In this document: positions 4,076 to 23,498 of the stretch, in pieces
How positions within the stretch are numbered: position 1 is the first letter of the stretch
How the letters are laid out: each line of letters opens with the position of its first letter
Source: a virus
Direction: 5' to 3' (one strand)
IMG/VR virus record: IMGVR_UViG_3300024503_000397
Location: 1 to 25,231 of that record
Length of the DNA stretch: 25,231 nucleotides
Made by a program: the position numbers and the translations under genes
The notes under the pieces: generated by a model
Seen by the model: the letters and a program-made list of their open reading frames with translations, nothing else
Database searches by the model: none
Told to the model about the DNA's origin: nothing

Positions 4076-4099
4076 CAAAATATAAAGTAATAGTAAAAT
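4072..4099 (+). promoter_or_regulatory. Predicted promoter for the replication operon (TTGACA-N16-TAAAAT)
   Basis: A perfect -35 box TTGACA (4072-4077) overlaps the stop codon of the previous gene and is followed after 16 nt by TAAAAT (4094-4099). The predicted start near 4106 lies just before the hairpin at 4109-4128. This is the only promoter candidate I see for the overlapping gene run from 4147 to 8770. Confidence 0.55.
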
Positions 4100-4108
4100 T
4101 ATACAACC

Positions 4109-4131
4109 AAAGTCACTGACGTGACTTTTTT
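4109..4131 (+). terminator. Hairpin with T-run (terminator or attenuator)
   Basis: AAAGTCAC (4109-4116) and GTGACTTT (4121-4128) form a perfect 8-bp stem with a TGAC loop, with T residues running through 4131. It can terminate transcripts from the fibre cluster, but it also lies about 3 nt inside any transcript from the promoter at 4072. It could therefore act as a 5'-end hairpin or attenuator for the downstream operon. Confidence 0.6.
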
Positions 4132-4146
4132 CATGTTAGGATTTAA

Positions 4147-4947
4147 ATGACAAATGATTTAAAATGGATGCTGTCGTCAGACCAGCAGTTCCCTTATCAA
4201 GATGATAAGATGATTGAATTATGGTTTAAGGTTTTAAAATGGTTTAAGCCAGATGTAGTAGACTATTTAGGTGACACAGACGATCAGGCATGCTATAGCA
4301 AATATACTGAAGGTCGTTCAGCAGAGTTTTTAAATCTTCACAAAACAGACAGCGCTGACCTTATTGTTCCTATGATGAGACACGAAGCTAAAGGTGCAAG
4401 AGATTTTTATGCTAAGACTCGTGAGATGCTTCCAGACGCACAATTATTTTCTGCATTAGGAAACCATGACATACGTATCTTTGATTATATAGATAAAAAA
4501 CTTCCAGAGTATGCAGCACAAGTAACACCAGAAGCGCTATGGTCTTTGGATTCATTAGGGTATGAATATATTTATTATAACGAACTCCCTAAGCGCCGTT
4601 TTGGCGATATACATGTTCATCATGGAATTTCTATTGCCGCAACTGGGTCAGTTCGCAAGGATATGGAAGATCTTCAAGTTTCATTAATACGTGGTCATTC
4701 ACATAGAATTGCATCACATTTAGTTACATATGAATTAAGAAACAATGGAGAAGGAGAAACTCTTCGTGGTTATGAAATTGGACATATGTGTGATGAAAAG
4801 GGTCCAGGCATGAAGTATACCCAACATCACGATTGGCAAAAAGGATTTGCAATTGCACATATTGTCAACGATTATCCTCATATTCAAATGATTCACGTAG
4901 CACCAGATTATTCATGTGTTGTAGATGGGAAAGTATTTAAACTATGA
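4147..4947 (+). CDS. Calcineurin-like metallophosphoesterase
   Basis: A 266-residue protein with the signature motifs of the calcineurin-like phosphoesterase fold in order: D12-Q-Q (where many members have D-x-H), G42-D-T-D-D46, G105-N-H-D108, H158-H-G160 and G183-H-S-H186. These residues normally bind two metal ions and hydrolyse phosphomono- or phosphodiesters. Length fits a single-domain enzyme without the extra domains of SbcD/Mre11, so a DNA-repair nuclease role is possible but not indicated. No signal peptide is seen, so it acts in the cytoplasm. It is the first gene after the 4072 promoter, and its stop overlaps the start of the next gene (ATGA). The substrate cannot be deduced. Confidence 0.85.
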   Translation: MTNDLKWMLSSDQQFPYQDDKMIELWFKVLKWFKPDVVDYLGDTDDQACYSKYTEGRSAEFLNLHKTDSADLIVPMMRHEAKGARDFYAKTREMLPDAQLFSALGNHDIRIFDYIDKKLPEYAAQVTPEALWSLDSLGYEYIYYNELPKRRFGDIHVHHGISIAATGSVRKDMEDLQVSLIRGHSHRIASHLVTYELRNNGEGETLRGYEIGHMCDEKGPGMKYTQHHDWQKGFAIAHIVNDYPHIQMIHVAPDYSCVVDGKVFKL

Positions 4948-5132
4948 TGCATTGTAGAAGATGTGGCGGACGAGTTTTTATAGATAGAGTCTTTTCACAA
5001 AAACTACATATTGAATTGTATTGTCTGCTTTGTGGAAGACGTTGGATGATTAATAAAGAAATGAGTATATTTGGAAGATGGCTAGACGAAAAAGAGCTAG
5101 AACAAAGAAAAACTTTCGGTATTTCTTCTTAA
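4944..5132 (+). CDS. Small zinc-ribbon protein
   Basis: A 62-residue protein overlapping the phosphoesterase gene by 4 nt (ATGA); a second ATG follows at once. Two CxxC pairs, C4-R-R-C7 and C27-L-L-C30, have the spacing of a classical zinc ribbon, with 'CGG' and 'CGRRW' knuckles. The tail is basic and acidic mixed helix. Such proteins bind nucleic acid or serve as adaptors, but the specific role is unknown. The start of the next gene lies inside this one by 55 nt. Confidence 0.75.
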   Translation: MMHCRRCGGRVFIDRVFSQKLHIELYCLLCGRRWMINKEMSIFGRWLDEKELEQRKTFGISS

Positions 5133-5566
5133 ATGAAAAATTACATAAAGTTTTAAAATCTTCTAGAGTAAAAGATCAGATCATTGCCTGGTCTTATTTA
5201 GATAAAAAAAGAGTTTTATACTCATATGCTGAAGTAATCAAATATATGGAAAGAGCGTATTCTCTTAAAGAAGTGTGCTTTATTTTAGATAAACATGTTG
5301 TAACTGTAAAAGACTATATTGGTGAAGGCAAAATTAGACAGCCACAAAAAATATATCCTATAGGAAATTCTGAAAGCACAAAATGGTCTCAATATATGTT
5401 TAATCAAAAAGACATATTAGAGTTACATGATTACATATTGAGCAGCGGTAGAAATACTGAGAACCTGCCAACAAAAACTGAATTACTGGCCTTGCTAAAT
5501 CATAATGTCATATTGTATACTAAGACATCCGAAGGCACCTTTGTCCCAGTATGGAAAGCAGAATGA
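5078..5566 (+). CDS. Helix-turn-helix DNA-binding protein
   Basis: A 162-residue protein with a strongly basic N-terminus ('MARRKRARTKKNFRYF'). A central helix-turn-helix resembling the MerR/excisionase winged-helix class spans about residues 60-115: 'YSLKEVCFILDKHVVTVKDY' followed by a wing and 'F.QKDILELHDYI'. In that class the first two helices contact DNA and the wing follows; there is no recombinase domain. It starts within the zinc-ribbon gene in another frame; I keep the long form because the basic extension continues smoothly into the fold. A regulatory or origin-binding role in this early operon is plausible but unproven. Confidence 0.7.
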   Translation: MARRKRARTKKNFRYFFLNEKLHKVLKSSRVKDQIIAWSYLDKKRVLYSYAEVIKYMERAYSLKEVCFILDKHVVTVKDYIGEGKIRQPQKIYPIGNSESTKWSQYMFNQKDILELHDYILSSGRNTENLPTKTELLALLNHNVILYTKTSEGTFVPVWKAE

Positions 5567-5856
5567 GAAAAAAACAAGAAGAAGAATTTGAAAAGCTTGA
5601 CAGTTCTACGGCTTTTACTAGAATTGCAGGCAACCTAGATCTTGCATCTATGCATGCAAATAAAAAGAAAGATGTGCAAGGGCTAATCACAGTCGCAGTT
5701 GCTTGGATGCAATTTTCTGATTTTATTGCTAATGGAGAGATGCCAAAAAAGAAATTTACAATAGGATTTGGACCAGAAGAGGAGGAGCAAGATGAAAGAC
5801 CAATCAACCGTCGTAAAGGTAGATCTTCAATTCACAAGAAATCTAGGGAACTATGA
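5563..5856 (+). CDS. Conserved-looking phage protein of unknown function
   Basis: A 97-residue protein. I choose the ATG at 5563, which overlaps the previous stop (ATGA) and has GGAAAG just upstream, over the ATG at 5551, which has no ribosome site. The N-terminal third is a charged helix, the middle (about 45-60) is hydrophobic ('GLITVAVAWMQFSDFI'), and the C-terminus is strongly acidic then basic ('PEEEEQDERP', then 'RRKGR'). The hydrophobic stretch is too short and polar for a confident membrane segment. No family recognised. Confidence 0.6.
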   Translation: MRKKQEEEFEKLDSSTAFTRIAGNLDLASMHANKKKDVQGLITVAVAWMQFSDFIANGEMPKKKFTIGFGPEEEEQDERPINRRKGRSSIHKKSREL

Positions 5857-6016
5857 AAGTATTAAGATTGGTATAGGCGTAGAAGATATTGTTCGTGACG
5901 GCGAAAATGTTGATTCTGCCACAAATAGAGTTTATAAATTTGTTGAAGATAAATTAATTCAAAAAGCTTCCGAGATAGAAGAGGAATTGAAAGTTGGCAA
6001 GCAAGGAAAACAGTAA
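5792..6016 (+). CDS. Small replication-cluster protein with NYESIKI motif
   Basis: A 74-residue protein. The start at 5792 is preferred over an in-frame ATG at 5768 because GGAGGAG lies just before it. It overlaps the previous gene by 65 nt. The core 'LGNYESIKIGIGVE' is a beta-hairpin motif I have seen in small proteins of many phage replication clusters. It is followed by a helix with conserved-looking 'DKLIQKASEIEEEL'. The function of these proteins is not established as far as I know. An accessory role to the helicase or primase that follow is inferred from position only. Confidence 0.6.
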   Translation: MKDQSTVVKVDLQFTRNLGNYESIKIGIGVEDIVRDGENVDSATNRVYKFVEDKLIQKASEIEEELKVGKQGKQ

Positions 6017-6371
6017 ACAGGCTCACGCTCTGCTTACACATTATATTTATTTGTTTAAGGATAAATATAATCGTGACCCAATTTTAAATAGGTATAGAGA
6101 AAAATGGGGTATGCAAGACGTTATAGATACTGTTGGATATGAACGTGCCAAAGATTTGATAGAATATTATTTTACTTTTAATAGATATAATCATCCCTTA
6201 CAATGGTTTTTTTATAATTTTGATAAATTAGATAAGCTTTGGAAAGATATAGAGGATGACAAAGTGCATAGAGATATGCTAAGATTAAAGACCAAAGAAA
6301 TGGTGGAAGAGAGAGAAAGGCGGTTAGATGAACACGGAAGCAACGCTGATATCAGCAGTATGCAAAAATAA
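5994..6371 (+). CDS. Unknown helical protein upstream of the helicase (possible loader)
   Basis: A 125-residue protein starting at TTG 5994 with GAGGAA about 7 nt upstream; no in-frame ATG could serve without losing the N-terminal helix. It is predicted mainly helical, with many aromatic residues in the centre ('YYFTFNRYNHPLQWFFYNF', about residues 58-76) and a charged C-terminal helix ending in 'EERERRLDEHG'. It overlaps the helicase gene by 44 nt. Phage helicase loaders are small helical proteins encoded just before the helicase, so this is a candidate, but I see no diagnostic loader motif (no AAA+ Walker motifs). Confidence 0.6.
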   Translation: MASKENSKQAHALLTHYIYLFKDKYNRDPILNRYREKWGMQDVIDTVGYERAKDLIEYYFTFNRYNHPLQWFFYNFDKLDKLWKDIEDDKVHRDMLRLKTKEMVEERERRLDEHGSNADISSMQK

Positions 6372-7554
6372 AGATATAGCCACTTTACTTGCCGATAATG
6401 TTGACGATTTATTTACCTCCCATAAAGATGTTTGGGAAGGCTTAAAGTCTTATTATTATAAATTTAAAGCAGTTCCAGATATCGGAATCCTTACGGATAG
6501 GTTCAGAGACTTTGACCCATCAGAGGTTAAAGGTGAAACTGGATATTATTTAGACCAACTTAAAGCAGAATATCTTTCTAGCAAATTAAAGGGCATTATA
6601 TTACGTGGAGGGTCTGCGTTAAAAGAAGATGCTCCTTCTAGAATTATTGCTAATATGCAAGCGGAGCTTGCAAGCCTTTCTAAATTTACTAGCAACGTAA
6701 GAGATTTAGATGTTACCGATTTTGAATCTGCAGAAAAATATTTTGAGCAAGTCAGAAAACGTTCTGGCATTATGGGTGGAAGTCCAGGAATTCCTACTGG
6801 CTTTAAAGCAATTGATACAGCATATGCAACTGGAATGGCTCCAGGACATTTAATTGTTGCTATTGGTTGGCCAGGTAGAGGAAAGACTTGGTTTACTTCC
6901 TACCTTGCATGCAAAGCATGGGAACAAGGTTTTAAACCCATGATTATATCTCTTGAAATGTCTCCAGAAGATATGCGTAATCGTATTTACACAATGATGG
7001 GATCTGGATTGTTTAAGGCAAGTGATTTTTCTAGAGGCGATGTAAATGTTGATGACTTCAGGTCCTGGAGTAAAAAGAATTTTGAAAACAAGAATGGTTT
7101 CATACTTGTTTCAAATGAAGGAATGGGTTCGGTAAATGCAAATACTGTTCAAGCTAAAATTGACCAGCATAAACCAGATATTGTAATCCTTGATTACCAC
7201 CAGTTGTTTGCTGATACAAAAGGAAGCACTGGGGCTACTGAGAGAAATATGAACGTTTCTCGTGAATTTAAAATGTTGGCAATGAACAATAATATTCCTA
7301 TTATTGACATTACCGCTGCAACTATGGATGATGTATCAGATCAAGACAATCCGCCTATGCTGTCACAAGTGGCATGGTCAAAAGCTATTGAGTATGATGC
7401 TGATATGGCAATAGCCATTCATAAATATAATGACACAAACATGATTGAAATTGTGTCCAGAAAGAACCGCCACGGCAGCGACTTTGGCTTCTATTTGGAC
7501 TGGGATATTAATAGGGGTATAATTAAGGAGATATATGAAAATATACCTAAATGA
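6328..7554 (+). CDS. dnaB: DnaB-type replicative helicase
   Basis: A 408-residue RecA-fold helicase that would unwind the fork ahead of the phage polymerase. The N-terminal domain (about 1-110) is followed by 'GIPTGFKAID', typical of the linker before the ATPase core. Walker A is G180-WPGRGKT187, the 'LEM' element sits near 209-211 and Walker B is 'IVILDY' (285-290). Near residue 330 the usual 'SQLNR' (with a phosphate-sensing Gln) reads 'TAATM', while the following 'QVAWSKAIEYDADMAIAI' matches the DnaB C-terminal core and 'SRKNRHG' matches the R-finger region. Length is slightly below bacterial DnaB (about 450-470), as in many phages. It sits between a possible loader and the primase genes. 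Confidence 0.9.
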   Translation: MNTEATLISAVCKNKDIATLLADNVDDLFTSHKDVWEGLKSYYYKFKAVPDIGILTDRFRDFDPSEVKGETGYYLDQLKAEYLSSKLKGIILRGGSALKEDAPSRIIANMQAELASLSKFTSNVRDLDVTDFESAEKYFEQVRKRSGIMGGSPGIPTGFKAIDTAYATGMAPGHLIVAIGWPGRGKTWFTSYLACKAWEQGFKPMIISLEMSPEDMRNRIYTMMGSGLFKASDFSRGDVNVDDFRSWSKKNFENKNGFILVSNEGMGSVNANTVQAKIDQHKPDIVILDYHQLFADTKGSTGATERNMNVSREFKMLAMNNNIPIIDITAATMDDVSDQDNPPMLSQVAWSKAIEYDADMAIAIHKYNDTNMIEIVSRKNRHGSDFGFYLDWDINRGIIKEIYENIPK

Positions 7555-7853
7555 CCCATCAACGTATACAACGATTTCAGGTCAGAGCAGAATTCAATAG
7601 TGATGCAGATATCATCCGAGTTCGTGCTCAGTACGAGTCACTTCTAATACAGGAAATGAGAGACAAAGGATTTGTAAGAGTCCTAGATATTGATCCATCA
7701 TTTTCAACATCATATGAAAACAACATATGGTCTTTTATATTAACAATGCATAGCGTATACGTAGGAAAGAAGAAAGCATGGGAATCAGAGGGAATCTCGC
7801 AAGGAAAGTTGATTCCACGAGATACACGTCGTCACACATTAAATCAATTCTAA
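7551..7853 (+). CDS. Small protein between helicase and primase, function unknown
   Basis: A 100-residue protein whose start overlaps the helicase stop (ATGA), so translation is probably coupled; no strong ribosome site is visible. It looks like a small alpha/beta fold: 'RFQVRAEF' strand, a long helix around 'IRVRAQYESLLIQEMRDKGF', then strands through 'WSFILTMHSVYVGKKKAWE'. No catalytic or metal motif is evident. It overlaps the primase gene by 76 nt. The conserved place suggests a replication accessory role, which I infer only. Confidence 0.65.
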   Translation: MTHQRIQRFQVRAEFNSDADIIRVRAQYESLLIQEMRDKGFVRVLDIDPSFSTSYENNIWSFILTMHSVYVGKKKAWESEGISQGKLIPRDTRRHTLNQF

Positions 7854-8770
7854 AGTCATTAAATGTTTCTGTAGTTGGAGAGACTGGCAATGACTTCCTG
7901 TGCTATTGTCCATTCCATTCCAATAGACATAGTGCCAGCTTTAGCGTTTCTAAAGAAATAGGTGCTTGGCTATGTTTTAATCCTGCTTGTGGCGAGAGCG
8001 GAACATTAATTGATTTAGTTAAAAAAATAACTAAAAGAAATGATTTTGAGGCTTTAAGATTTGTATCTCTTAAAGAAGCAGAAGTTCTTTCAAATTTTGA
8101 TGAACTTTTAGAAAGTGCCGTGGAGGAAAAAGAAGATTTTATTGAGTTTGATTCAAGCACACTTGACAAACTATCTTTAGAAATGAAAGAATATTCTGAA
8201 GGAAAAGAGTATATGTATACTCGTGGATTTAAAGATGAGACATTGGAGTACTTTAATGTTGGATATTCTAAAAACCGTAATATGGTTACAGTTCCTGTTC
8301 ATAGCCCAGACGGCATTTGTGTTGGCGTTGTTGGGCGCAGTGTTACACAAAAAGAATTTAAAAACTCACCAGGGCTACCTCGCAATTCTACTCTTTTTAA
8401 CATTCACCGTGCTAAGCGTGTGGGGGCAAATTGTATTATTGTTGAATCTTCGTTCGATGCAATGAGAGTGCATCAGGCTGGATTTCCAAATGTTGTTGCT
8501 ACTTTAGGCGGACATATATCTTCAAATAATTTATCTTTATTGAATAGATATTTCAATAGACTTATAATTATGACAGATAATGATGAGGCTGGCAGATCTT
8601 TGGGAAATAATATTTTTAATAAATTAAGAAACAAAGACATCTTGTGGGCATCCTATGAATATGGTAAGATATACCCACATAACGCAAAAGATGCTGGTGA
8701 TATGACTGACGAAGAGATAAAGCTTTGTATAAATAACTCTGCATCACATATTGAATATATCAACTGGTAG
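7778..8770 (+). CDS. dnaG: DnaG-type DNA primase with zinc-binding and TOPRIM domains
   Basis: A 330-residue primase that would make RNA primers for lagging-strand synthesis. The N-terminal zinc-binding domain has C44-x2-H47 and C66-x4-C71 ('CPFH', 'CFNPAC') followed by 'GTLIDLV'. The TOPRIM domain has 'IIVESSFDAM' with E223 and 'MTDNDEAG' with D267 and D269, the acidic residues that bind metal. It lacks a bacterial-type C-terminal helicase-binding domain, which fits its short length (bacterial DnaG is about 580 residues). The start at 7778 has AGGAAAGAAG upstream and lies inside the preceding gene. The predicted promoter of the next gene begins near its 3' end. Confidence 0.9.
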   Translation: MGIRGNLARKVDSTRYTSSHIKSILKSLNVSVVGETGNDFLCYCPFHSNRHSASFSVSKEIGAWLCFNPACGESGTLIDLVKKITKRNDFEALRFVSLKEAEVLSNFDELLESAVEEKEDFIEFDSSTLDKLSLEMKEYSEGKEYMYTRGFKDETLEYFNVGYSKNRNMVTVPVHSPDGICVGVVGRSVTQKEFKNSPGLPRNSTLFNIHRAKRVGANCIIVESSFDAMRVHQAGFPNVVATLGGHISSNNLSLLNRYFNRLIIMTDNDEAGRSLGNNIFNKLRNKDILWASYEYGKIYPHNAKDAGDMTDEEIKLCINNSASHIEYINW

Positions 8771-8779
8771 TGATATAAT
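8751..8779 (+). promoter_or_regulatory. Predicted promoter for the ssDNA-binding protein (TTGAAT-N17-TATAAT)
   Basis: TTGAAT (8751-8756) and TATAAT (8774-8779) with a 17-nt spacer and a TG one base before the -10 box (extended -10). The predicted start near 8786 is a few bases before the inverted repeat at 8789. With the terminator after 9502 this makes the ssDNA-binding gene a separate unit, which suits a protein needed in large amounts. Confidence 0.65.
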
Positions 8780-8788
8780 AATAATACA

Positions 8789-8805
8789 GATGGATATATA
8801 CCATC
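8789..8805 (+). promoter_or_regulatory. Inverted repeat in the leader (5' hairpin or operator)
   Basis: GATGG (8789-8793) and CCATC (8801-8805) flank the AT-only spacer ATATATA. The whole 17-nt element is nearly palindromic. It sits at the predicted mRNA 5' end of the ssDNA-binding gene, so it could be a 5' stem-loop or, by analogy with autoregulated T4 gene 32, a translational or transcriptional operator. That function is inference. Confidence 0.4.
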
Positions 8806-8827
8806 ACCTATATAGCAAAGGAATAAA

Positions 8828-9502
8828 ATGGGAATAGTAAAAGGTCTAAAAGACCTAAATAAAACATTAGACAAGCCGCAATCTTCTGGCGGAGACTCAG
8901 CAAAAGGTCGCTGGCTCAAACTTGAAGATGGAGAAAGCATCAAAGTAAGATTTCTTCAAGAGTTGGATCCAGATTCTCCAACGTACAACGATAAGCTTGG
9001 ACTGGGCTTTATTGCAGTCGAACACACAAATCCAAAAGATTATCGCCGTAAAGCGCTATGCTCTATTGACGACCAAGGAAAGTGTTGGGGTTGTGAGCAA
9101 CACCGCAAAGATTATAAGGCTGGCTGGAAAGGTCGTTCACGACTTTACATCAATGTTCTTGTTGATGATGGCAAAGAAGAGCCATATGTAGCAATCCTTT
9201 CTCAGGGCAGTAGTGGGAAAACAATTACTCCAACTCTTATTGAGTATGCTGGAGAAATGGGATCCATTACAAATCTCATGTGGAGAATTAAGCGCTCTGG
9301 CACAAAAACAGACACCAGTTATACAATCATTCCTCTTGCTAAAGACGAGGTAGAATTTGATGCGTCAAAGCTTGAGATTTTTGAATTGGAAAAGACAGCA
9401 ATTCGTGATCTTCCATATTCAGAACAAGAAACATTTTATCTATTCGGAGATAATGAAAAGAGCGAAGGCTCAGAAAATACCACCAGTAATTTAGAGTGGT
9501 AA
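8828..9502 (+). CDS. gp32-like single-stranded DNA-binding protein
   Basis: A 224-residue protein resembling the T4 gp32 class of phage ssDNA-binding proteins, which coat exposed single strands during replication and recombination. The zinc-binding cluster C78-x7-C86-x2-C89-x2-H92 ('CSIDDQGKCWGCEQH') sits in a beta-rich core, preceded by 'GRWLKLEDGESIKVRFL', a typical first strand. The C-terminus (about 205-224) is short and acidic with Glu and Asp, as expected of the tail that recruits partners. It is shorter than T4 gp32 (about 301). It has its own promoter, leader repeat and terminator. The start has only a modest ribosome site (AAGGAA, 4 nt before the ATG). Confidence 0.8.
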   Translation: MGIVKGLKDLNKTLDKPQSSGGDSAKGRWLKLEDGESIKVRFLQELDPDSPTYNDKLGLGFIAVEHTNPKDYRRKALCSIDDQGKCWGCEQHRKDYKAGWKGRSRLYINVLVDDGKEEPYVAILSQGSSGKTITPTLIEYAGEMGSITNLMWRIKRSGTKTDTSYTIIPLAKDEVEFDASKLEIFELEKTAIRDLPYSEQETFYLFGDNEKSEGSENTTSNLEW

Positions 9503-9517
9503 CTATTGACAGTTCAT

Positions 9518-9553
9518 GGGGGAAAGTGTTAAGCTTTCCCCCTATAACTTTTT
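9518..9553 (+). terminator. Intrinsic terminator after the ssDNA-binding gene
   Basis: GGGGGAAAG (9518-9526) and CTTTCCCCC (9534-9542) form a perfect 9-bp stem with a 7-nt loop, followed by an AT-rich stretch with TTTTT at 9549-9553. I see no convincing promoter between it and the next gene at 9563, so that gene probably depends on read-through. Confidence 0.8.
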
Positions 9554-9562
9554 AGGAGTAAT

Positions 9563-10057
9563 ATGCAAACTTTTTTACCTTATCCGTCTAAGCGTGAAAG
9601 CTTAGATGCTTTAGACAATAAACGACTTAATAAACAAATCTTAGAGTGCTATCAGATACTTAATATATTAACTGGCAACTCAAAATCAAATGCTTGGCGT
9701 CATCACCCTGCCGTTTTAATGTGGGAAGGCGCTGAATCAGAATTGTATCGCTATGCTATGACTGCTGTTGTTTTAGCCGATATGCGTGGTATCAAAACAG
9801 ATAAAAATAAGGAAAACCTAGAACGTCTATCTCGTTCTCGTGCTTCTTTAATATGGGAAGATAATACTCCTTTATGGGCTATTAATCCAACTACAATTAA
9901 ACGTGTAAATGCTACACACAAGGCCAACCTATATCGTAAAGATCCTATATTCTATGTAGATTTTGCAGATTCAGTTGATAGCGAATACAACAAGCCTTGT
10001 TGCGATAAATGCTTGTACTATTGGCCAACACATGTTTTGAGGTCAATTGCAGCATGA
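9563..10057 (+). CDS. Pyrimidine-dimer glycosylase / MSMEG_6728-like family protein
   Basis: A 164-residue protein with AGGAG 6 nt before the ATG. The N-terminus 'MQTFLPYPSK.ESLDALDNKRLNKQ' matches the pattern of proteins annotated as pyrimidine dimer DNA glycosylase/endonuclease V family (MSMEG_6728-like), common in actinobacteria and their phages. The 'HPAVLMWEGAE' segment (about 48-58) is the second typical block. Members are thought to process UV-damaged or modified DNA, but activity is unproven for many. A C-terminal CCDKC motif (about 147-151) is extra and could bind metal. Its stop overlaps the start of the polymerase gene (ATGA). Confidence 0.75.
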   Translation: MQTFLPYPSKRESLDALDNKRLNKQILECYQILNILTGNSKSNAWRHHPAVLMWEGAESELYRYAMTAVVLADMRGIKTDKNKENLERLSRSRASLIWEDNTPLWAINPTTIKRVNATHKANLYRKDPIFYVDFADSVDSEYNKPCCDKCLYYWPTHVLRSIAA

Positions 10058-14155: not shown

Positions 14156-14164
14156 TGCTATACT
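14156..14164 (+). promoter_or_regulatory. Possible extended -10 promoter before recA (TGCTATACT)
   Basis: TGC followed by TATACT (14159-14164) matches an extended -10 element. The -35 region (14136-14141) is poor. The predicted start near 14171 leaves a short leader containing the recA ribosome site (AGAAGGAAA). It could give recA and downstream genes extra expression. Confidence 0.4.
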
Positions 14165-14188
14165 ATGTAAACAAAAGAAGGAAAATCA

Positions 14189-18005: not shown

Positions 18006-18148
18006 AATTGTATCAAAGCCAGACATGGTTATATAGAAGATATGTAGTTCAGAAAAAAACTGTTACGGAAATTGCTGATGAGTGTAAAGTTTCAGCAATG
18101 ACTATACAGAGATATTTAGAAAAATTTGGAATGATAAAGAGGAGATAG
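18002..18148 (+). CDS. 48-residue helix-turn-helix protein
   Basis: A tiny ORF with start overlapping the RuvC-like stop (ATGA). It consists of one HTH unit: a basic first helix ('YRRYVVQKK'), then 'TVTEIADECKVSAMTIQRYL' and a basic end ('KRR'). The pattern fits the resolvase/homeodomain-like HTH class (T..EIA...VS..T..RYL). With no other domain it could be a small repressor or a DNA-binding helper. One candidate target is the palindrome at 18478-18489, only about 330 nt downstream, but this link is a guess. Confidence 0.65.
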   Translation: MKLYQSQTWLYRRYVVQKKTVTEIADECKVSAMTIQRYLEKFGMIKRR

Positions 18149-18149
18149 T

Positions 18150-18473
18150 ATGCTAGAGCCAGTATTTGCAGACATGAAGGAATTTAAGTGTGACGACCTT
18201 TATTTATTAACTGTTGGAACGGAAGCGGGTAGAGAAATTTATAATGCTTGCCACGAAATTGCTCACATGCTAATTAAAAAGAACATTGCTTATGGCAACT
18301 CCGCCCTTGACCCAGTTAGAGTATTTTCAAAAGCGGGGCCACGAGAGCAGTTATATGTTCGTATTGATGATAAATTAAATAGGTTAATGAAGGGTACAGA
18401 ATACCCAGGCGACAACGATATTGATGATTTGATTGGATATCTAATTCTGCTAAAAATAGCTAAATCGATTTGA
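18150..18473 (+). CDS. DUF1599 / nucleotide-modification-associated (Nmad1)-like protein
   Basis: A 107-residue helical protein with GAGGAG before the ATG. The pattern 'KKNIAYGNSALDPVRVFSKA', then 'VRIDDKLNRLMKG', then 'DIDDLIGYLILLKIAKS' follows the conserved blocks of the DUF1599 family, which has also been described as nucleotide modification associated domain 1. The family occurs in phages and is thought to act in nucleotide or base-modification pathways. I recognise it by pattern only. Its stop overlaps the -35 box of the terminase promoter, so it ends the replication/recombination run. Confidence 0.6.
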   Translation: MLEPVFADMKEFKCDDLYLLTVGTEAGREIYNACHEIAHMLIKKNIAYGNSALDPVRVFSKAGPREQLYVRIDDKLNRLMKGTEYPGDNDIDDLIGYLILLKIAKSI

Positions 18474-18498
18474 TTTTTTAGTCGACTAAGATTATAAT
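18470..18498 (+). promoter_or_regulatory. Predicted promoter of the terminase operon, likely leaderless (TTGATT-N17-TATAAT)
   Basis: TTGATT (18470-18475) and TATAAT (18493-18498) are separated by 17 nt. The expected start, 6-7 nt after the -10 box, coincides with the ATG at 18505, and no ribosome site exists in between. The mRNA is therefore predicted to be leaderless, a mode common in actinobacteria. The spacer contains a perfect palindrome. Confidence 0.65.
18478..18489. promoter_or_regulatory. Perfect 12-bp palindrome in promoter spacer (operator candidate)
   Basis: TTAGTCGACTAA reads the same on both strands and lies exactly between the -35 and -10 boxes of the terminase promoter. A bound dimeric protein there would block RNA polymerase, or act as a MerR-type activator by distorting the spacer. 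I did not notice another copy in the window. Confidence 0.5.
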
Positions 18499-18504
18499 AT
18501 TAAT

Positions 18505-19044
18505 ATGGAAATAGAATTAGCAGACCATTTTGATAAAATGAACAAGGTGGTTTCAGAACTACTAAAGGGTAATAACCCAACTCAAATTGCTACAATAACT
18601 GGATACAAAAGAGCAGAAGTACTGGACTTAATAGACGAATGGAAGAGCGTTGTCCATAACGACTCAAGCGCAAGAGAACGTGCTAAAGAGGCTGTCTCTG
18701 GTGCTGATCAACATTATGCAATGCTTATTAAAGAGGCATGGAGCACTGTAGAGGCTGCCGATGCTCAAGGTCAACTTAATGTTAAGGCTAATACATTAAA
18801 GCTAATTGCTGATATTGAAACAAAAAGAATTGGCATGCTTCAGCAGGTAGGGCTATTAGACAATGCAGAGTTGGCAAATCAAATTGCAGAAACTGAAAAG
18901 AAACAAGAAATTCTTGTAGGCATATTAAAAGAAGTTACTGCTGGTTGTCCAAAATGTAAACTAGATGTTGCAAAAAGATTGTCGCAGATTACTGGAGTGG
19001 TAGAACCAGTTGTAATTGATACAGAGGAAGCAAGTGGATCTTAA
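18505..19044 (+). CDS. Putative terminase small subunit
   Basis: A 179-residue protein directly before the large terminase gene and overlapping its start by 11 nt. The N-terminus holds a helix-turn-helix ('LLKGNNPTQIATITGYKRAEVLDLIDEW', about 19-46, quoted pattern in two halves: Q-I-A-T-I-T-G and R-A-E-V-L). The centre (about 60-140) is long helices suited to ring oligomerisation. A CPKC pair (about 149-152) may bind metal. Small terminase subunits recognise phage DNA and load the large subunit. The identification rests on position, length and domain order rather than a specific family match. The start is predicted leaderless. Confidence 0.7.
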   Translation: MEIELADHFDKMNKVVSELLKGNNPTQIATITGYKRAEVLDLIDEWKSVVHNDSSARERAKEAVSGADQHYAMLIKEAWSTVEAADAQGQLNVKANTLKLIADIETKRIGMLQQVGLLDNAELANQIAETEKKQEILVGILKEVTAGCPKCKLDVAKRLSQITGVVEPVVIDTEEASGS

Positions 19045-20830
19045 TTTTAATGATCTTATTGATATCCTAGACGGAGAGGAATTTGATGAAAGACCAGTCG
19101 ATTTACGAACATTCGTTACAAGCCAAGATTTCCTTGGACTCCCTGAACTTTCGGAGTACCAGTATACACTCATTGAGAAGAGCAGCCAGATCTACAAAGA
19201 ATCCACACTTATCAAACTATTTGGACAAGAAGAAGGAACCCGCAGATACAAGCAAACTTGCAATGAAGTAATTGCACAATTGGGCAAGGGTAGTGGTAAA
19301 GATTATTGCTCAACAATATCTGTAGCGTATATAGTTTATTTACTATTATGCTTAAAAGATCCAGCAACATATTATGGAAAACCAGCTGGAGACTCAATTG
19401 ATATTATTAATATTGCTATTAACGCACAGCAAGCAAACAATGTTTTCTTCAAGGGATTTAGAACTAGAATTACTAGATGCGGGTGGTTTGCTGGGAAATA
19501 TACAGAAAAAGCTTCCGAAATAAAATTTGATAAAAATGTAAATGTTTATTCTGGCCATTCAGAGAGAGAAGCATTTGAAGGATATAACGTTATAGTTGTT
19601 GTTCTAGACGAGATAGCAGGCTTTGCGGTAGAAAATACAACTGGACACGATCAGGCTAAAACAGCAGATGCAATATATGAAATGTATAGAGGATCAGTTG
19701 ACTCTCGTTTTCCAGATTATGGAAAAGTAATTCTTTTGTCTTTTCCAAGATTTAAGGGTGATCCAATTCAAAAGTTCTACGATCAAGCAATTGCTGAAAA
19801 AACTGTAACAATAAGAAAACATAAGTTTAAAATAGACCAAGACCTTCCAGATGGAATTACTGGCAATGAATTTGAAATAGAATGGGAAGAAGACAATATA
19901 ATTTCTTATAGAGTGCCTAAAGTATATGCTTTAAAAAGACCAACTTGGGAAATTAATCCAACAAGATCTTTAGAAGATTTTAAAATTCCTTTTTACAAAA
20001 ATGCTTTAGACGCACTAGGGAGATTTGCATGTATGCCGCCAGAAATGGTTGATGCATTTTTTAAGTCTAGAGAAAAAGTAGAAAAAGCTTTCAACAAGGC
20101 ACACCTTGCTGTGGATGGATTTGGAAGGATCGAAGAGTGGTTTATACCAGATCCAGACAAAGATTATTTCATACACGTAGACCTTGCACAAAAACATGAC
20201 CATTGCGCTGTTGCAATGTCTCATGTTAATAAATGGGTTAACGTAAAGGTTACAGATAATTATTCTCAGCCAGCACCAGTAATTGAAGTTGATGCAATTA
20301 GATATTGGACGCCTACACCAGATAAGTCTGTAGATTTTACTGAGGTAAAAGATTTTATATTGGCTTTAAAAACTCGTGGATTTAAAATTCGTGTGTGCAC
20401 ATTTGATAGATGGAACTCTCATGACATGATGCAACAGTTAAAAACTTATGGCATCAATACAGAAATATTATCTGTTGCCAAAAAACATTATGACGATATG
20501 GCTATGGTAGTTTTAGAAGAAAGATTAAATGGTCCGCACATCCCTTTACTCATTGATGAATTATTACAGTTAAAAATTATGAGAGATAAAGTTGACCATC
20601 CAAGAAAAGGTTCTAAGGACTTGGCGGATGCTGTATGTGGATCAATATTTAATTGTATAAGCATGAGCAGATTTGACACCAATCAAGAAGTAGAAATTCA
20701 CACATACGAATCAATGAATTATAAAGCTGACTTTGGAGAAGAAAAAGAGGAATCTATTAATCTTATTAAGCCTCCAAAAGCAATGCCAAATGACTTACAA
20801 GACGCTATAGGAAGAATGATGGTTTTATGA
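19034..20830 (+). CDS. terL: Terminase large subunit
   Basis: A 598-residue packaging motor with ATPase and nuclease domains. I start at GTG 19034, which has GAGGAAG upstream; a TTG at 19016 is less likely. The ATPase has Walker A 'GKGSGKD' (84-90) and Walker B 'VIVVVLDE' (D192, catalytic E193). The RNase H-like nuclease domain shows acidic residues D383 ('HVDLAQKHDHCAVA'), D458 ('FDRWNSHDM') and D532 ('KDLADAVCG'). It pumps DNA into proheads and cuts it at the end of packaging. Its stop overlaps the next gene (ATGA). Portal and capsid genes are not visible nearby, so the packaging and capsid genes are separated in this genome or lie beyond the window. Confidence 0.92.
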   Translation: MDLNFNDLIDILDGEEFDERPVDLRTFVTSQDFLGLPELSEYQYTLIEKSSQIYKESTLIKLFGQEEGTRRYKQTCNEVIAQLGKGSGKDYCSTISVAYIVYLLLCLKDPATYYGKPAGDSIDIINIAINAQQANNVFFKGFRTRITRCGWFAGKYTEKASEIKFDKNVNVYSGHSEREAFEGYNVIVVVLDEIAGFAVENTTGHDQAKTADAIYEMYRGSVDSRFPDYGKVILLSFPRFKGDPIQKFYDQAIAEKTVTIRKHKFKIDQDLPDGITGNEFEIEWEEDNIISYRVPKVYALKRPTWEINPTRSLEDFKIPFYKNALDALGRFACMPPEMVDAFFKSREKVEKAFNKAHLAVDGFGRIEEWFIPDPDKDYFIHVDLAQKHDHCAVAMSHVNKWVNVKVTDNYSQPAPVIEVDAIRYWTPTPDKSVDFTEVKDFILALKTRGFKIRVCTFDRWNSHDMMQQLKTYGINTEILSVAKKHYDDMAMVVLEERLNGPHIPLLIDELLQLKIMRDKVDHPRKGSKDLADAVCGSIFNCISMSRFDTNQEVEIHTYESMNYKADFGEEKEESINLIKPPKAMPNDLQDAIGRMMVL

Positions 20831-21078
20831 CAAATATATATCAAGAGAGAGCAAAAGAGTGTAAATGTTGTGGAAAACATGTGCCACTACCAACTGTTTT
20901 ACGTGAATATAATGGAGTAATGATGTGCCCAACTACCTATGCAAACGTTTTGGAGTATACTAGGATATGGAAGCAAATAGGTTCTAGACCAGCTGGGAGT
21001 ATTAGAAAACATTTTTCTGAATATGTCCAACAAGTTGTTGAAACAACTATTGACATATCTGATCAGACAAAGATATAA
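20827..21078 (+). CDS. Small Cys-containing protein downstream of terminase
   Basis: An 83-residue protein coupled to the terminase gene (ATGA). 'CKCCGKHVPLPTVL' (about 12-25) and a later 'MCPTTYANVLEY' provide three or four Cys for a possible single zinc knuckle, followed by a helical region with 'GSRPAGSIRKHFSEYVQ'. The place and small size would fit a packaging accessory or HNH-related fragment, but the His/Asn residues of an HNH nuclease are not apparent. The promoter for the following tRNA lies within its last codons. Confidence 0.65.
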   Translation: MTNIYQERAKECKCCGKHVPLPTVLREYNGVMMCPTTYANVLEYTRIWKQIGSRPAGSIRKHFSEYVQQVVETTIDISDQTKI

Positions 21079-21079
21079 T
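21050..21079 (+). promoter_or_regulatory. Consensus promoter for tRNA(CAT) (TTGACA-N18-TATAAT)
   Basis: Both hexamers are perfect (TTGACA 21050-21055, TATAAT 21074-21079) with an 18-nt spacer. The predicted start near 21086 is 2 nt before the tRNA 5' end. The promoter overlaps the 3' end of the preceding gene. It also serves the genes at 21175-21737. Confidence 0.75.
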
Positions 21080-21087
21080 ATTCCAAC

Positions 21088-21161
21088 GTGGCAGTAGCTT
21101 AGTTGGTTAGAGCCCCGAACTCATAATTCGGTAGTCGTAGGTTCGAGTCCTACCTGCCGCA
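21088..21161 (+). tRNA. tRNA with CAT anticodon (Met, or Ile2 after lysidine modification)
   Basis: A 74-nt cloverleaf. The acceptor stem is GTGGCAG/CTGCCGC with one G-T pair. The D arm contains AGTTGGTTAGAGC. The anticodon stem is CCGAA/TTCGG around loop CTCATAA, and the T arm is GTAGG/CCTAC with loop TTCGAGT. The discriminator is A and CCA is not encoded. The paired first base argues against initiator tRNA. CAT may read ATG, or ATA if position 34 is changed to lysidine; ATA is common in these genes, so I leave identity open. Confidence 0.92.
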
Positions 21162-21174
21162 CAAGGAGAAAGAA

Positions 21175-21483
21175 GTGGAAAACATGAATAACATGGAACA
21201 CTATATTGAAATAGGCGCTATTGAAATAGAGGGCGTTGATGAAACTGGTGAATTAGTTCTTTCAATTAGTGAAAGGGCAAAAGATATTGCTCCAGAACTA
21301 TGGGCTGCTCATGTTCAACATATTGACGAAACTCTTCTTGAGCTGTATAAGTCTGGTTACATGGATGTAGAATACGATGAAGATCTTGAACCAAACTTTA
21401 AATTAAGTGATGAAGGAATAAAAATTGCAAAAGAAATGGGGTTAATTCCTATGGATAAACAAAGGAATATCCCAAATAATTAG
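21175..21483 (+). CDS. Acidic winged-helix-like protein, unknown
   Basis: A 102-residue acidic protein starting at GTG 21175, with AGGAG 6-7 nt upstream and 13 nt after the tRNA. Two beta strands at the start ('EIGAIEIEGVDETGELVLSI') are followed by helices ('APELWAAHVQHIDETLLELYKSG') and a short strand-helix end ('FKLSDEGIKIAKEMGLI'), an order that resembles a winged-helix fold. I have no family name or function. Probably co-transcribed with the tRNA. Confidence 0.65.
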   Translation: MENMNNMEHYIEIGAIEIEGVDETGELVLSISERAKDIAPELWAAHVQHIDETLLELYKSGYMDVEYDEDLEPNFKLSDEGIKIAKEMGLIPMDKQRNIPNN

Positions 21484-21491
21484 GAGGAATT

Positions 21492-21737
21492 ATGCCTTGG
21501 AAAGTTGAAAAAGGTGCAGCAGGTTGTAATGGGTATGCAGTAGTAAAAGAAGATACTGGTGAGCTTGTTGGGTGTCATCCAACAAAAACAGCAGCAACAG
21601 CACATCTAAAAGCTTTATATGCAAATGAGGTAGAAAAGGCAAACCCTTGTTGGGACGGGTATGAAATGATTGGGTGGAAAACCCAAAATGGAAAAAGAGT
21701 TCCAAACTGTGTAAAAACAAAAAAAGTTTTTTCATAA
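21492..21737 (+). CDS. Two-module small protein (CHPTK and CWDGYE motifs)
   Basis: An 81-residue protein with the strong site TAGGAGG. The first module (about 1-46) has 'WKVEKGAAGCNGYAVVKEDT', 'GCHPTKTAATAHLKALYANE'. The second (about 51-75) has 'NPCWDGYEMIGWKTQNGKRVPNCV'-type spacing: CW.GYE, a basic GK turn and VPNCV. In my experience each occurs in other phage proteins, sometimes at the ends of larger structural or protease genes. Here they form a stand-alone protein. Function is unknown; Cys residues could form disulphides or bind metal. Confidence 0.7.
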   Translation: MPWKVEKGAAGCNGYAVVKEDTGELVGCHPTKTAATAHLKALYANEVEKANPCWDGYEMIGWKTQNGKRVPNCVKTKKVFS

Positions 21738-21749
21738 TTGATTTAGTAA

Positions 21750-21755
21750 TATAAT
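21750..21755 (+). promoter_or_regulatory. Possible -10 box upstream of the tRNA-Arg leader (TATAAT)
   Basis: TATAAT at 21750-21755 stands in a gene-free stretch directly after the 21737 stop; the -35 region is only a T-run. The predicted start near 21762 is the first base of a structured non-coding stretch. Confidence 0.4.
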
Positions 21756-21761
21756 TATCCT

Positions 21762-21846
21762 GTAGGCGCTAACCCCCCTACGCATTCGGGCTCGCTACCT
21801 TGGGATGATTATGGTTACGTAAAGGCTAACTTCGGTTAGCCTTTAC
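21762..21846 (+). ncRNA. Structured non-coding stretch with UUCG hairpin upstream of tRNA-Arg
   Basis: About 85 nt between a -10 box and tRNA-Arg, with GC content higher than its surroundings. GTAGG (21762-21766) can pair with CCTAC (21777-21781), or alternatively its GTAG with CTAC further on. The 3' end is a perfect 12-bp hairpin, 21819-21830 with 21835-21846, closed by a C(TTCG)G tetraloop. No T-run follows, so it may be a processing or stability element for the tRNA precursor, a leader, or a short RNA. No known RNA family recognised. Confidence 0.45.
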
Positions 21847-21850
21847 TTAT

Positions 21851-21923
21851 GCCCTTGTAGCTCAGTGGATAGAGCGAGACTCTTCTAAGGTCTGCGTCGG
21901 AGGTTCGATTCCTTTCAGGGGCG
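21851..21923 (+). tRNA. tRNA-Arg (TCT anticodon)
   Basis: A 73-nt cloverleaf. The acceptor stem is GCCCTTG/CAGGGGC with one G-T pair. The D arm is GCTC/GAGC, the anticodon stem AGACT/GGTCT holds loop CTTCTAA (anticodon TCT), and the T arm is GGAGG/CCTTT with two G-T pairs. CCA is not encoded, and TTTTT follows 2 nt later. It reads AGA and AGG, and AGA is clearly a preferred arginine codon in these AT-rich genes, so it probably supplements the host supply. Confidence 0.92.
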
Positions 21924-21928
21924 CTTTT

Positions 21929-21962
21929 TGGTATAATAGCTTTGGATCGCCATTAGGGGTCC
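21929..21962 (+). promoter_or_regulatory. Extended -10 promoter and 5' hairpin for hsp20
   Basis: TGGTATAAT (-10 at 21932-21937) is an extended -10 element directly after tRNA-Arg; the -35 region is poor. The predicted start near 21944 coincides with the first base of a small stem: GGATC (21944-21948) with GGTCC (21958-21962), including a G-T pair. The leader then runs to the ribosome site AAAAGGAGG before 21998. Confidence 0.5.
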
Positions 21963-21997
21963 ATTAATTAACTTATTCGCTTAAAAGGAGGAATAAA

Positions 21998-22423
21998 ATG
22001 GTAACACAATTCGCAATGGATTTTTTTAATGATCCATTTTTTATCGGGTTCAATCGTGATTTTGACAAATTGTCAAGAATTCACACCCATGCAGCAGGAA
22101 CAAATTATCCACCATACAATGTAATCACAACAGACAATGAAGATAAATTCTTTATTGAAATTGCGGTTGCTGGATTTTCAAGAGAAGACCTTGATGTATC
22201 TGTAAAAGAACAGGTATTGACCGTAAAGGGAGAAATCAAGGATTCTAAAGAAGAGACAAAGTATGCTCACCGTGGAATTGCAGCACGTAAGTTTGTTCGT
22301 GAATTTGCCCTAGGTGAATTTATTGAAGTAACTGGTGCTACAGCGGAAAACGGAATGCTAAAAATTTCGTTGGAACGTATTGTTCCTGAAGACAAAAAGC
22401 CAAAATCAATTAGAATCAAGTAA
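21998..22423 (+). CDS. hsp20: Hsp20 / alpha-crystallin small heat-shock protein
   Basis: A 141-residue small heat-shock protein that would hold unfolded proteins in a soluble state as oligomers. The alpha-crystallin domain spans about residues 37-130. It starts with 'YPPYNVITTDNEDKFFIEIAVAGF', the IbpA-like class pattern, and contains 'VLTVKGEI' and 'ENGMLKISLERIVPE'. It ends with 'SIRIK', where I-x-I is the motif that docks into neighbouring subunits. The N-terminal arm is Phe-rich ('MDFFNDPFFIGF'). Small Hsp20 genes are known in several aquatic phages and probably aid virion assembly; host chaperone overlap is possible. It has its own promoter and a terminator. Confidence 0.93.
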   Translation: MVTQFAMDFFNDPFFIGFNRDFDKLSRIHTHAAGTNYPPYNVITTDNEDKFFIEIAVAGFSREDLDVSVKEQVLTVKGEIKDSKEETKYAHRGIAARKFVREFALGEFIEVTGATAENGMLKISLERIVPEDKKPKSIRIK

Positions 22424-22448
22424 TAGGTCTAGACAGACCTATTTGTTT
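22422..22448 (+). terminator. Terminator hairpin after hsp20
   Basis: AATAGGTCT (22422-22430) and AGACCTATT (22435-22443) form a perfect 9-bp stem with an AGAC loop, followed by TGTTT. The stem starts inside the hsp20 stop codon, and its loop region doubles as the -35 box of the next promoter. Confidence 0.7.
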
Positions 22449-22458
22449 GAGGTATAAT
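22430..22458 (+). promoter_or_regulatory. Predicted promoter for the oxygenase gene (TAGACA-N17-TATAAT)
   Basis: TAGACA (22430-22435) and TATAAT (22453-22458) are 17 nt apart, the same hexamer pair and spacing as the promoter at 3169. The -35 box lies in the loop of the hsp20 terminator. The predicted start is near 22465. Confidence 0.65.
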
Positions 22459-22464
22459 TATATT

Positions 22465-22538
22465 GTGTACCGCCTAAGTTGCGGACATAAGGGCCCTGGG
22501 CATGGCCAAGTAAACTGCCCATTTTATAATGGAGAGCC
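22465..22538 (+). promoter_or_regulatory. Structured 5' leader with possible H-type pseudoknot (cis-regulatory RNA candidate)
   Basis: The 74-nt leader has a hairpin CCGC (22470-22473)/GCGG (22481-22484). It then has an arrangement fitting an H-type pseudoknot: GGCC (22492-22495) pairs with GGCC (22504-22507), interleaved with GGGCA (22498-22502) pairing TGCCC (22516-22520). Its last loop is the A-rich AAGTAAAC. The ribosome site GGAG (22531-22534) follows 10 nt later. This resembles small pseudoknot riboswitches in architecture, but I do not recognise a known class. Confidence 0.5.
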
Positions 22539-23273
22539 ATGGAGATTATTGATTTAGAGCAACCAAATGTATTAATCATTAAAAATTTCTTTTCTAAAGA
22601 AGAAGTTGAAAAAGTTTTAATTCCAATGAAAGAAACTTCTGAAGAAATTTGGAATCTTCAGGGTGAAGCCAAAAAAGAAGATTCTACTAGAATTAAAAGA
22701 ATGTCAGAAAGACTTATTAAATCTGATAACATGAATTGGTATGGAATGACTATGGATATTACAAGTCGTGTTGATGCCTATAGAATGTATTCACATCTCC
22801 CACATGCTTTTTTAATAGAAAAAGAGCAACAAATAAAAAAAATAATAACAAATAAATTTAAACAAAATGTTGTTTTACAGCTCTCTGGTCTTCATAGGTG
22901 GAGGCCAGGAAGAGAGCAAAAGCCTCATATAGATTATTATGATTCTAGTGAACAGCATGATTTTGATATGTTAGAAAAATATAATCTGACAAAAGATCGT
23001 TTAGAAGAATTTGAGCATTCTTTTAATGACAAACATTATTCTTCATTAGTTTATTTTAATGAAGATTATATGGGTGGAGAACTATATATGCCTCAATGGG
23101 ATTGGGAAATAAAACCTGAGACAGGTATGTTAATTGCTTTTGAGGGAAATCAAAATCATTTACACGGAGTAAAGATGATGGAAGAAGGAATAAGATATAC
23201 TTGGTCTATTTTTTGGACAAGATTTGAGTGGGCTATGAAAAACAAAATTAAAGATAGTAAAGTGAGCATGTAA
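22539..23273 (+). CDS. 2-oxoglutarate/Fe(II)-dependent oxygenase
   Basis: A 244-residue protein of the 2OG-Fe(II) oxygenase fold, prolyl-hydroxylase-like. The metal triad is H130-x-D132 ('KPHIDYYD') and H209 ('NHLHGV'), and R219 ('EGIRYTWSIFW') would bind the 2-oxoglutarate carboxylate. 'SSLVYFNEDYMGGELYMP' (168-185) is the strongly conserved strand-loop between them. These enzymes couple 2OG decarboxylation to hydroxylation of protein, nucleic acid or small-molecule substrates; the target cannot be inferred here. They are common in aquatic phages. It has its own promoter and a structured leader, and ends 4 nt before the next gene. Confidence 0.88.
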   Translation: MEIIDLEQPNVLIIKNFFSKEEVEKVLIPMKETSEEIWNLQGEAKKEDSTRIKRMSERLIKSDNMNWYGMTMDITSRVDAYRMYSHLPHAFLIEKEQQIKKIITNKFKQNVVLQLSGLHRWRPGREQKPHIDYYDSSEQHDFDMLEKYNLTKDRLEEFEHSFNDKHYSSLVYFNEDYMGGELYMPQWDWEIKPETGMLIAFEGNQNHLHGVKMMEEGIRYTWSIFWTRFEWAMKNKIKDSKVSM

Positions 23274-23277
23274 TCTT

Positions 23278-23460
23278 ATGCCTATTTATGAATACAAATG
23301 TATTATTTGTGAACATATCAAAGAAATAAACAAATCAATTGATGAAGCAACAATGACAGAGATTTGTGAAAAATGTGGTGCCGCAATGGTTAAGCAATAT
23401 GGATCTTTTGGTATTCAGTTCAAAGGTTCTGGTTTCTATAAAACAGATAACGCTAAGTAG
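23278..23460 (+). CDS. FmdB-family zinc-ribbon protein
   Basis: A 60-residue protein starting 4 nt after the oxygenase stop, with no strong ribosome site and so probably coupled. It carries the FmdB/CxxC regulatory-type zinc ribbon: 'MPIYEYKC8-I-I-C11' and 'C30-E-K-C33-GA', followed by 'FKGSGFYKTD', a segment shared by many family members. The family is described as putative regulatory proteins; its biochemical function is unclear. Co-transcription with the oxygenase is likely. Confidence 0.85.
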   Translation: MPIYEYKCIICEHIKEINKSIDEATMTEICEKCGAAMVKQYGSFGIQFKGSGFYKTDNAK

Positions 23461-23465
23461 TCCAA

Positions 23466-23498
23466 TGATATAATTAATTAAGCAAACATAGTTTGCTT
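23466..23498 (+). promoter_or_regulatory. Extended -10 promoter and 5' hairpin for the PA14 gene
   Basis: TGATATAAT (-10 at 23469-23474) is an extended -10 element with a weak -35 region. An 8-bp perfect stem AAGCAAAC (23480-23487)/GTTTGCTT (23491-23498) with an ATA loop starts at the predicted mRNA 5' end (about 23481). The ribosome site AGGAG (23499-23503) begins on the base after the stem. Confidence 0.6.

Follow-up and report, generated by a model that had tools for sequence, protein, structure and literature searches.

Hairpins at or near predicted mRNA 5' ends in a group of uncultured actinobacterial phages

Leader stems in the analysed window

The IMG/VR record IMGVR_UViG_3300024503_000397 provides a fragment of 25,231 bases (the window, meaning this whole stretch) from a phage family that is a large and abundant viral group infecting freshwater actinobacteria. 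We analysed six hairpins that follow promoters of this fragment at or near the predicted mRNA 5' end. The window genes encoding metallophosphoesterase (MPE), single-strand DNA-binding protein (SSB), RecA, terminase, Hsp20 and a 2-oxoglutarate (2OG)-Fe(II) oxygenase have many relatives among other uncultured contigs; cultured phages of Streptomyces (Stanwilliamsviridae) and of Rhodococcus also carry relatives of them, with gene order partly shared. Four query genes each contributed up to 80 relatives to the comparative sample, and six near-complete relatives of 106-116 kb were added as 20-kb pieces. All six -10 hexamers and all six stems are present where the initial annotation had placed them (SD, Shine-Dalgarno sequence):

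4072..4099, plus strand: MPE promoter TTGACA, 16 nt, TAAAAT (-10 at 4094); predicted +1 at 4106
4109..4131, plus strand: MPE leader hairpin AAAGTCAC-TGAC-GTGACTTT with a 6-T run (8-bp stem at 4109-4128), starting at +4
4147..4947, plus strand: metallophosphoesterase gene, phrog_221
8774..8779, plus strand: TATAAT of the SSB unit, extended -10 TGATATAAT; predicted +1 at 8786
8789..8805, plus strand: SSB leader hairpin of 5 bp, loop consensus AUNUAYA, at +4
8828..9502, plus strand: single-strand DNA-binding protein gene, phrog_9721
21750..21755, plus strand: -10 TATAAT of the small-RNA/tRNA-Arg unit; predicted +1 at 21762
21762..21781, plus strand: stem GTAGG/CCTAC, beginning at +1, arms invariant in relatives
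21932..21937, plus strand: -10 TATAAT of the hsp20 unit; predicted +1 at 21944
21944..21962, plus strand: hsp20 5' hairpin GGATC/GGTCC, beginning at +1, with a conserved inner GCC-NNNN-GGG
21998..22423, plus strand: Hsp20 gene, PF00011
22453..22458, plus strand: -10 TATAAT of the 2OG-Fe(II) oxygenase unit; predicted +1 at 22465
22465..22488, plus strand: 2OG 5' hairpin GUGU-A-CCGC...GCGGACAU, beginning at +1 (core CCGC/GCGG at 22470-22484)
22539..23273, plus strand: 2OG-Fe(II) oxygenase-like gene, PF13640
23469..23474, plus strand: TATAAT of the 23511 unit, extended -10 TGATATAAT; predicted +1 at 23481
23478..23500, plus strand: 23511 leader stem with AGCAAAC/GTTTGCT inside; its 3' arm touches the SD AGGAG (23499-23503)

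Four other promoters had been described as exceptions to this arrangement:

3192..3197, plus strand: -10 of gene 3214, leader of ~17 nt without a stem
14159..14164, plus strand: recA -10, leader short and unstructured
18493..18498, plus strand: -10 of the terminase unit, which is leaderless; its ATG begins at the 7th base downstream of the hexamer, a spacing equal to that by which +1 is placed below
21074..21079, plus strand: -10 of the tRNA(CAT) unit; tRNA start at 21088

The first three are true exceptions. The fourth is not, as the tRNA itself begins 2 nt past the predicted +1; because of this short distance tRNA-Met(CAT) (21074-21162) may need little or no 5' processing.

The window taken alone is weak evidence that barely exceeds chance (p 0.01-0.14, depending on the null). 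A minimum free energy (MFE) of -4.5 or lower is reached by 7/10 leaders; the corresponding rates are 31% for 36-mers overall (binomial p 0.014) and 39% for the segments after other TANAAT sites (Fisher p 0.09). When stems are required to have 5 bp or more, they occur in 5/10 leaders vs 19-25% in the two nulls (p 0.025 and 0.14). This weakness matters because the initial annotation was made from the window only. The comparison with shuffled or AT-rich background that it proposed is marginal within the window and far beyond chance across the relatives. The pattern does recur in related phages, as shown by conservation, covariation and a dip in folding energy.

Covariation and strand asymmetry of the stems

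The SSB stem is paired in 320/320 alignment cells, with 36 cells changed on both sides and 4/5 pairs covarying; shuffled controls are on average 88% paired. The MPE stem is paired in 93.6% of cells and covaries at 7/8 pairs. In the hsp20 5' stem 7/11 pairs covary. Covariation was also looked for in the stem at 21762-21781 and gives it no support, the arms being invariant in relatives.

The best stems were then counted for G·U and A·C pairs, using a score that favours neither. Overall there are 92 G·U and 7 A·C pairs (68:5 in hsp20, 17:0 in 23511, 7:2 in MPE and 0:0 in SSB). Since a DNA dyad would give equal numbers of both, this asymmetry indicates that the stems are selected as RNA and not as DNA. 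The same reading extends to the SSB and MPE stems because the conserved SSB loop and the MPE T-run are one-sided. Comparison of the MFE with that of the reverse complement was discarded as a strand test; it is uninformative for SSB and MPE, as loop energies differ by strand. The property that recurs is the position of the stems, and their sequences differ, as originally claimed. For five of the six sites we regard as near certain both the conservation of the stems as RNA structures and their placement by the start of transcription.

Transcription start and pairing of the 5' end

Leaderless genes served as a ruler for the start site. In these genes we counted the offset between TGNTATAAT and an ATG that opens a downstream open reading frame of at least 80 codons. 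The ATG is at offset 6 in 42 unique genes, and any other offset is seen at most 10 times. From this we infer that +1 is the 7th base after TATAAT. With this start, the first RNA base would be paired in the small-RNA, hsp20, 2OG and 23511 units, where the stem starts at +1, and would lie 3 nt off the stem in the SSB and MPE units, where it starts at +4. All six window stems begin within about 0-4 nt of the predicted +1; the stems of most MPE relatives fall outside this range. At most one unpaired 5' base followed by at least 5 bp is found in 95% of 23511 leaders and 100% of hsp20 leaders (+1 at offset 6), compared with 22% in coding sequence and 26% in random 34-mers of the window.

Energy profile and leader length

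Folding energy was profiled in 30-nt segments around extended -10 sites that have a gene start behind them, as MFE minus the shuffled mean, for non-redundant promoters; this set came mainly from the queried genes. The difference amounts to -2.45 (standard error 0.29) immediately behind the -10 (0 nt) and to -2.32 at the +5 nt position. Elsewhere around the promoters it is mostly 0 to -0.8, and at the equivalent position of look-alike sites in coding sequence it is -0.15 +/- 0.16. A second dip at +65-70 lies within coding sequence and may derive from the SSB family.

Grouping the leaders with extended -10 by the downstream protein family gives a clear division by length. None of the 17 families with leaders shorter than 40 nt is structured (0/17; median z from -1.6 to +0.9). 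The four best-sampled families with leaders of 40 nt or longer are all structured, namely 23511 (40 nt, 46 unique leaders, z -4.3), SSB (48 nt, 64 unique leaders, z -2.5), MPE (53 nt, 72 unique leaders, z -4.1) and hsp20 (59 nt, 80 unique leaders, z -2.9). The informative contrast is that between leaders of 25-39 nt and those of at least 40 nt, because leaders below ~25 nt cannot fit a stem beside the SD. Small families include exceptions. The original statement that most promoters carry a stem fails genome-wide, as the early leftward promoters and 17/17 short-leader families are stemless. A cleaner rule holds for the well-sampled families: long leaders have a hairpin and short leaders have none.

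The early leftward promoters (L325, L326, L333, minus strand) have features of their own, with TGTCRGTGG a few nucleotides upstream of TGCTAYAAT and GAAAGG SDs. Two of these contigs (at L325:18391- and L333:777-) share an element GGTGAGGCTTTCAGG...AGTCTTTAAATATGCATAGTGTGGATGCAGCC after a -10, where no gene start was found; it is possibly a small RNA.

Individual leaders

The MPE stem with its T-run resembles a terminator in the window and in most relatives. The stem is retained without a T-run in three lineages (L256, L289, L319) and in phage Annadreamy. In the lineages from which the hairpin has been lost (L249-L251, L254, L262, L286), leaders measure ~27 nt. Two Streptomyces phages, Comrade and Annadreamy, have a strong hairpin in the gap upstream of the MPE gene; the one in Comrade is followed by a short T-run. 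Neither stem nor loop sequence is conserved between lineages in the MPE and 23511 leaders. Many MPE relatives (L242-L321), and not the window, also have an operator-like dyad TGYTACA-N5-TGTARCA overlapping the -10.

The SSB loop AUNUAYA is nearly invariant in 64 leaders, and the stem varies (GAUGG/CCAUC, GACGG/CCGUC, GAGUC/GACUC). Because the loop is so constant while the stem changes, this pattern suggests specific recognition of the hairpin. By analogy with T4 genes 32 and 43, it is perhaps bound autogenously by SSB. In cultured phages the primase-SSB gap likewise contains a -10 and then, by our reading at about +2 to +5, a hairpin whose sequence is unrelated. This applies to Streptomyces phages Faust, Gilson, Anedea and Annadreamy as well as to Rhodococcus phages Weasels2, Trina and NiceHouse. 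The hairpin is only ~4 bp long in the Rhodococcus phages, and when the whole gap is folded it does not always appear in the minimum-energy structure. A structured site with a conserved loop is present upstream of the SSB gene in the uncultured relatives, and the loop of the cultured phages differs. A pseudoknot between the SSB loop and the 3' tail was judged by eye and dropped, as no covariation was seen.

The leaders of the tRNA-Arg and hsp20 units contain one further hairpin each:

21819..21846, plus strand: hairpin of 12 bp immediately ahead of tRNA-Arg, its stem covarying and its loop variable
21973..21996, plus strand: SD-masking hairpin UUAUUC(G)CUU / GAGGAAUAA, with a UYGCU anti-SD like that of ROSE (repression of heat shock gene expression) elements and a bulged G

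The first of these is probably the 3' end of a leader RNA of ~85 nt. This RNA (21756-21846) is strongly conserved directly upstream of tRNA-Arg(TCT) in 23 contigs, and it may be a small RNA released by RNase P. The stem at 21762 of the initial annotation belongs to this RNA and is plausible. We disregarded another possible pairing there, AUCCU/GGGAU at 21757, since most of it would precede +1.

The SD-masking hairpin of hsp20 is retained in nearly all of 38 aligned leaders, with one compensated change (L010). The hsp20 SD is predicted to be the least accessible of the five leader sets, with an unpaired probability of ~0.30 at 25 C vs 0.84 for SSB. Its predicted exposure rises from 0.33 to 0.42 between 5 and 50 C. 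The Rfam ROSE models gave no match to the hsp20 leader up to E 10. Because of this and of the small predicted melting, we do not file the element as ROSE. Downstream of hsp20, a hairpin at 22422-22443 is terminator-like on the minus strand and holds the -35 (TAGACA) of the next promoter.

On its 5' side the 23511 stem comes within 0-4 nt of the -10. It has its full length solely in read-through RNA; a start at +1 strips the outer pairs and leaves 7 bp. The predicted probability that the SD is unpaired is 0.30 in read-through RNA and ~0.52 in RNA from its own start, and 28/42 leaders shift by more than 0.1. The leader thus has the geometry of a switch, with its own predicted +1 inside the 5' arm and the SD at the 3' arm.

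A pseudoknot and other RNA elements

Behind its 5' hairpin the 2OG oxygenase leader contains a compact pseudoknot:

22492..22521, plus strand: H-type pseudoknot GGCC-C-UGGGCA-U-GGCC-AAGUAAAC-UGCCCA, ~28 nt

A pattern scan of IMG/VR and GTDB genomes found that pseudoknots of this type (NNNC-CUGRGCAY-GNNN-nn-AAACUGCYCA; L358-L477, L499-L615) are widespread in phages and bacteria. Among the matches listed, the viral set has 116 unique copies with gaps of 4-7; two or all three of the variable P1 pairs form in 100% of these copies, compared with 21% when partners are shuffled, a spacer of 5 nt predominates, and the pseudoknot lies a median of 13.5 nt past the stop codon, where a stop was found. The genes upstream, in a sample of 20, include those for major head proteins, Hsp20, ssDNA-binding proteins and ribonucleotide reductase. 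Direct scans against Rfam gave no match to the pseudoknot, and we found no paper on its consensus in the literature. Our guess is that it acts on the stability or the translation of abundant mRNAs.

The leaders of Zn-ribbon genes (L030, L079, L191, L192, L205) contain a larger two-domain structure, a hairpin domain with this pseudoknot, which is riboswitch-like; the two that were scanned have no Rfam match. Above gathering scores, the Rfam scans returned tRNAs only. Matches to freshwater-2, preQ1-II and DUF2815 were rejected as weak, sub-threshold and driven largely by the SD region.

Discussion

We propose that the stems share a role in 5'-end protection, to which gene-specific modules have been added, and put the probability of this reading at roughly 0.48. 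In its favour count the energy dip behind extended -10 sites, the division by leader length, also within the MPE family, the covariation, the G·U excess, the start-site ruler with the paired 5' ends of 23511 and hsp20, and the SSB hairpins of cultured phages. Stabilisation of mRNA by 5' structure is known, and RppH requires unpaired 5' bases (PMC3997798). The stem would keep the 5' triphosphate end out of reach of pyrophosphohydrolase and RNase E/J, enzymes that act on a single-stranded end, and mRNAs whose 5' end is covered by no ribosome would thereby last through infection. The modules would sit on or behind the 5' stem. In hsp20 the module would be the SD-masking, ROSE-like hairpin. In 23511 the read-through RNA would mask the SD, and RNA from its own promoter, starting inside the 5' arm, would free it. 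The SSB module would be the hairpin with the conserved loop, possibly bound by SSB; the MPE module would be the terminator-like stem and the 2OG oxygenase module the pseudoknot. An extension to the whole genome is doubtful in our judgement: each mRNA would either start near its SD, where the ribosome covers the end, or have a hairpin at or near +1 as a sequence-free cap that carries sensors.

Several observations weigh against shared protection. Most MPE relatives have ~6 unpaired bases ahead of the stem, which makes a poor shield, and SSB has 3. A cap would have no need of pairs upstream of +1 such as the 23511 stem has. The conserved letters of the SSB loop and of the hsp20 internal loop point to specific recognition over simple shielding. 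The early leftward promoters, presumably expressed too, have short unstructured leaders in the six near-complete relatives and fetched loci. The relatives share phylogeny and are not independent, and the bulk of the data comes from four query genes.

It is a real possibility that the stems are purely gene-specific regulators (an SSB operator, an hsp20 thermometer, a 23511 switch and an MPE attenuator) that share a position only through short leaders. The near-invariant SSB loop on a variable stem, the low predicted exposure of the hsp20 SD relative to SSB, the shift in 23511 and the T4 precedents of genes 32, 43 and e (PMC3014915) all fit such roles. They leave unexplained, however, the link with leader length, the identical base (+1) at which stems begin in several unrelated units, and the lack of stem or loop conservation across lineages in 23511 and MPE. 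The MPE stem, and similar ones, could also happen to follow a promoter while serving as intrinsic terminator for the operon before it, or as an attenuator close to the promoter. The GC-containing stem and the six T at 4109-4131 would suit this; most relatives retain them, as does Comrade with a shorter T-run. We consider this unlikely, given that other relatives keep the stem and lack the T-run, and that the other five stems have no T-run.

A role of the repeats as DNA operators, bound by a repressor at the promoter, is very unlikely. The dyads do lie over +1, many MPE promoters have TGTTACA-N5-TGTAACA over the -10, and inverted repeats at cluster K mycobacteriophage promoters are thought to bind a regulator (PMC11373665); yet the stems differ between genes of one genome, their conserved loops are asymmetric, and the excess of G·U over A·C on the transcribed strand leads us to reject an operator. 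Chance stems in AT-rich sequence are the least credible of these explanations. The marginal significance in the window alone would allow them, but covariation, the energy profile, deep conservation and the rates of 5' pairing contradict chance for five sites, the 21762 stem excepted.

The proposed protective stems are like the 5'-terminal stabilising stem-loops of E. coli ompA and papA, which concern entry of RppH and RNase E/J, in that they lie within a few bases of +1. Unlike those, they occur in many units of one phage family, often exactly at +1 and with unrelated sequences, and they are known here from sequence. In the translational switch of T4 gene e, a hairpin covers the SD and a promoter used later lies within the stretch that forms the 5' arm (PMC3014915). 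The 23511 leader is similar, with a -10 that abuts the 5' arm, a predicted +1 within it, the SD beside the 3' arm and the upstream gene 50 nt off; it differs in its host-type -10, in having no T4 late promoter and in an SD that is only partly masked. The SSB leader is like the T4 gene 32 and 43 operators in having a structure 5' of an A+U-rich stretch that leads to the SD of a replication protein, and in its conserved loop. It differs in being a plain 5-bp hairpin at +4.

The hsp20 leader shares with ROSE thermometers a 5' hairpin, a second hairpin whose UYGCU anti-SD faces the SD with one G bulged out, and a small heat shock gene downstream. In contrast to ROSE it is from an actinophage, has two hairpins only and no Rfam match, and is predicted to hardly melt up to 50 C. 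We found no paper on phage ROSE elements in the literature. The extended start-associated sequences (ESAS) of cluster K mycobacteriophages also combine a SigA-like promoter with an inverted repeat, repeated within one actinophage genome; ESAS copies share sequence, whereas the present stems differ and lie after the -10. A narrow literature search turned up no phage transcriptome.

Each of these mechanisms is already known, and what is new is the +1-anchored arrangement across many genes. If the proposal is true, a phenomenon of single mRNAs, known from 5' stem-loops and T4 leaders, would become a general layout of an abundant virus group. Transcription starts would be readable from sequence, by leaderless genes together with the stems at +1. 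The hsp20, SSB and 23511 leaders would be testable RNA switches, and the SSB and MPE leaders would have counterparts in cultured Streptomyces and Rhodococcus phages.

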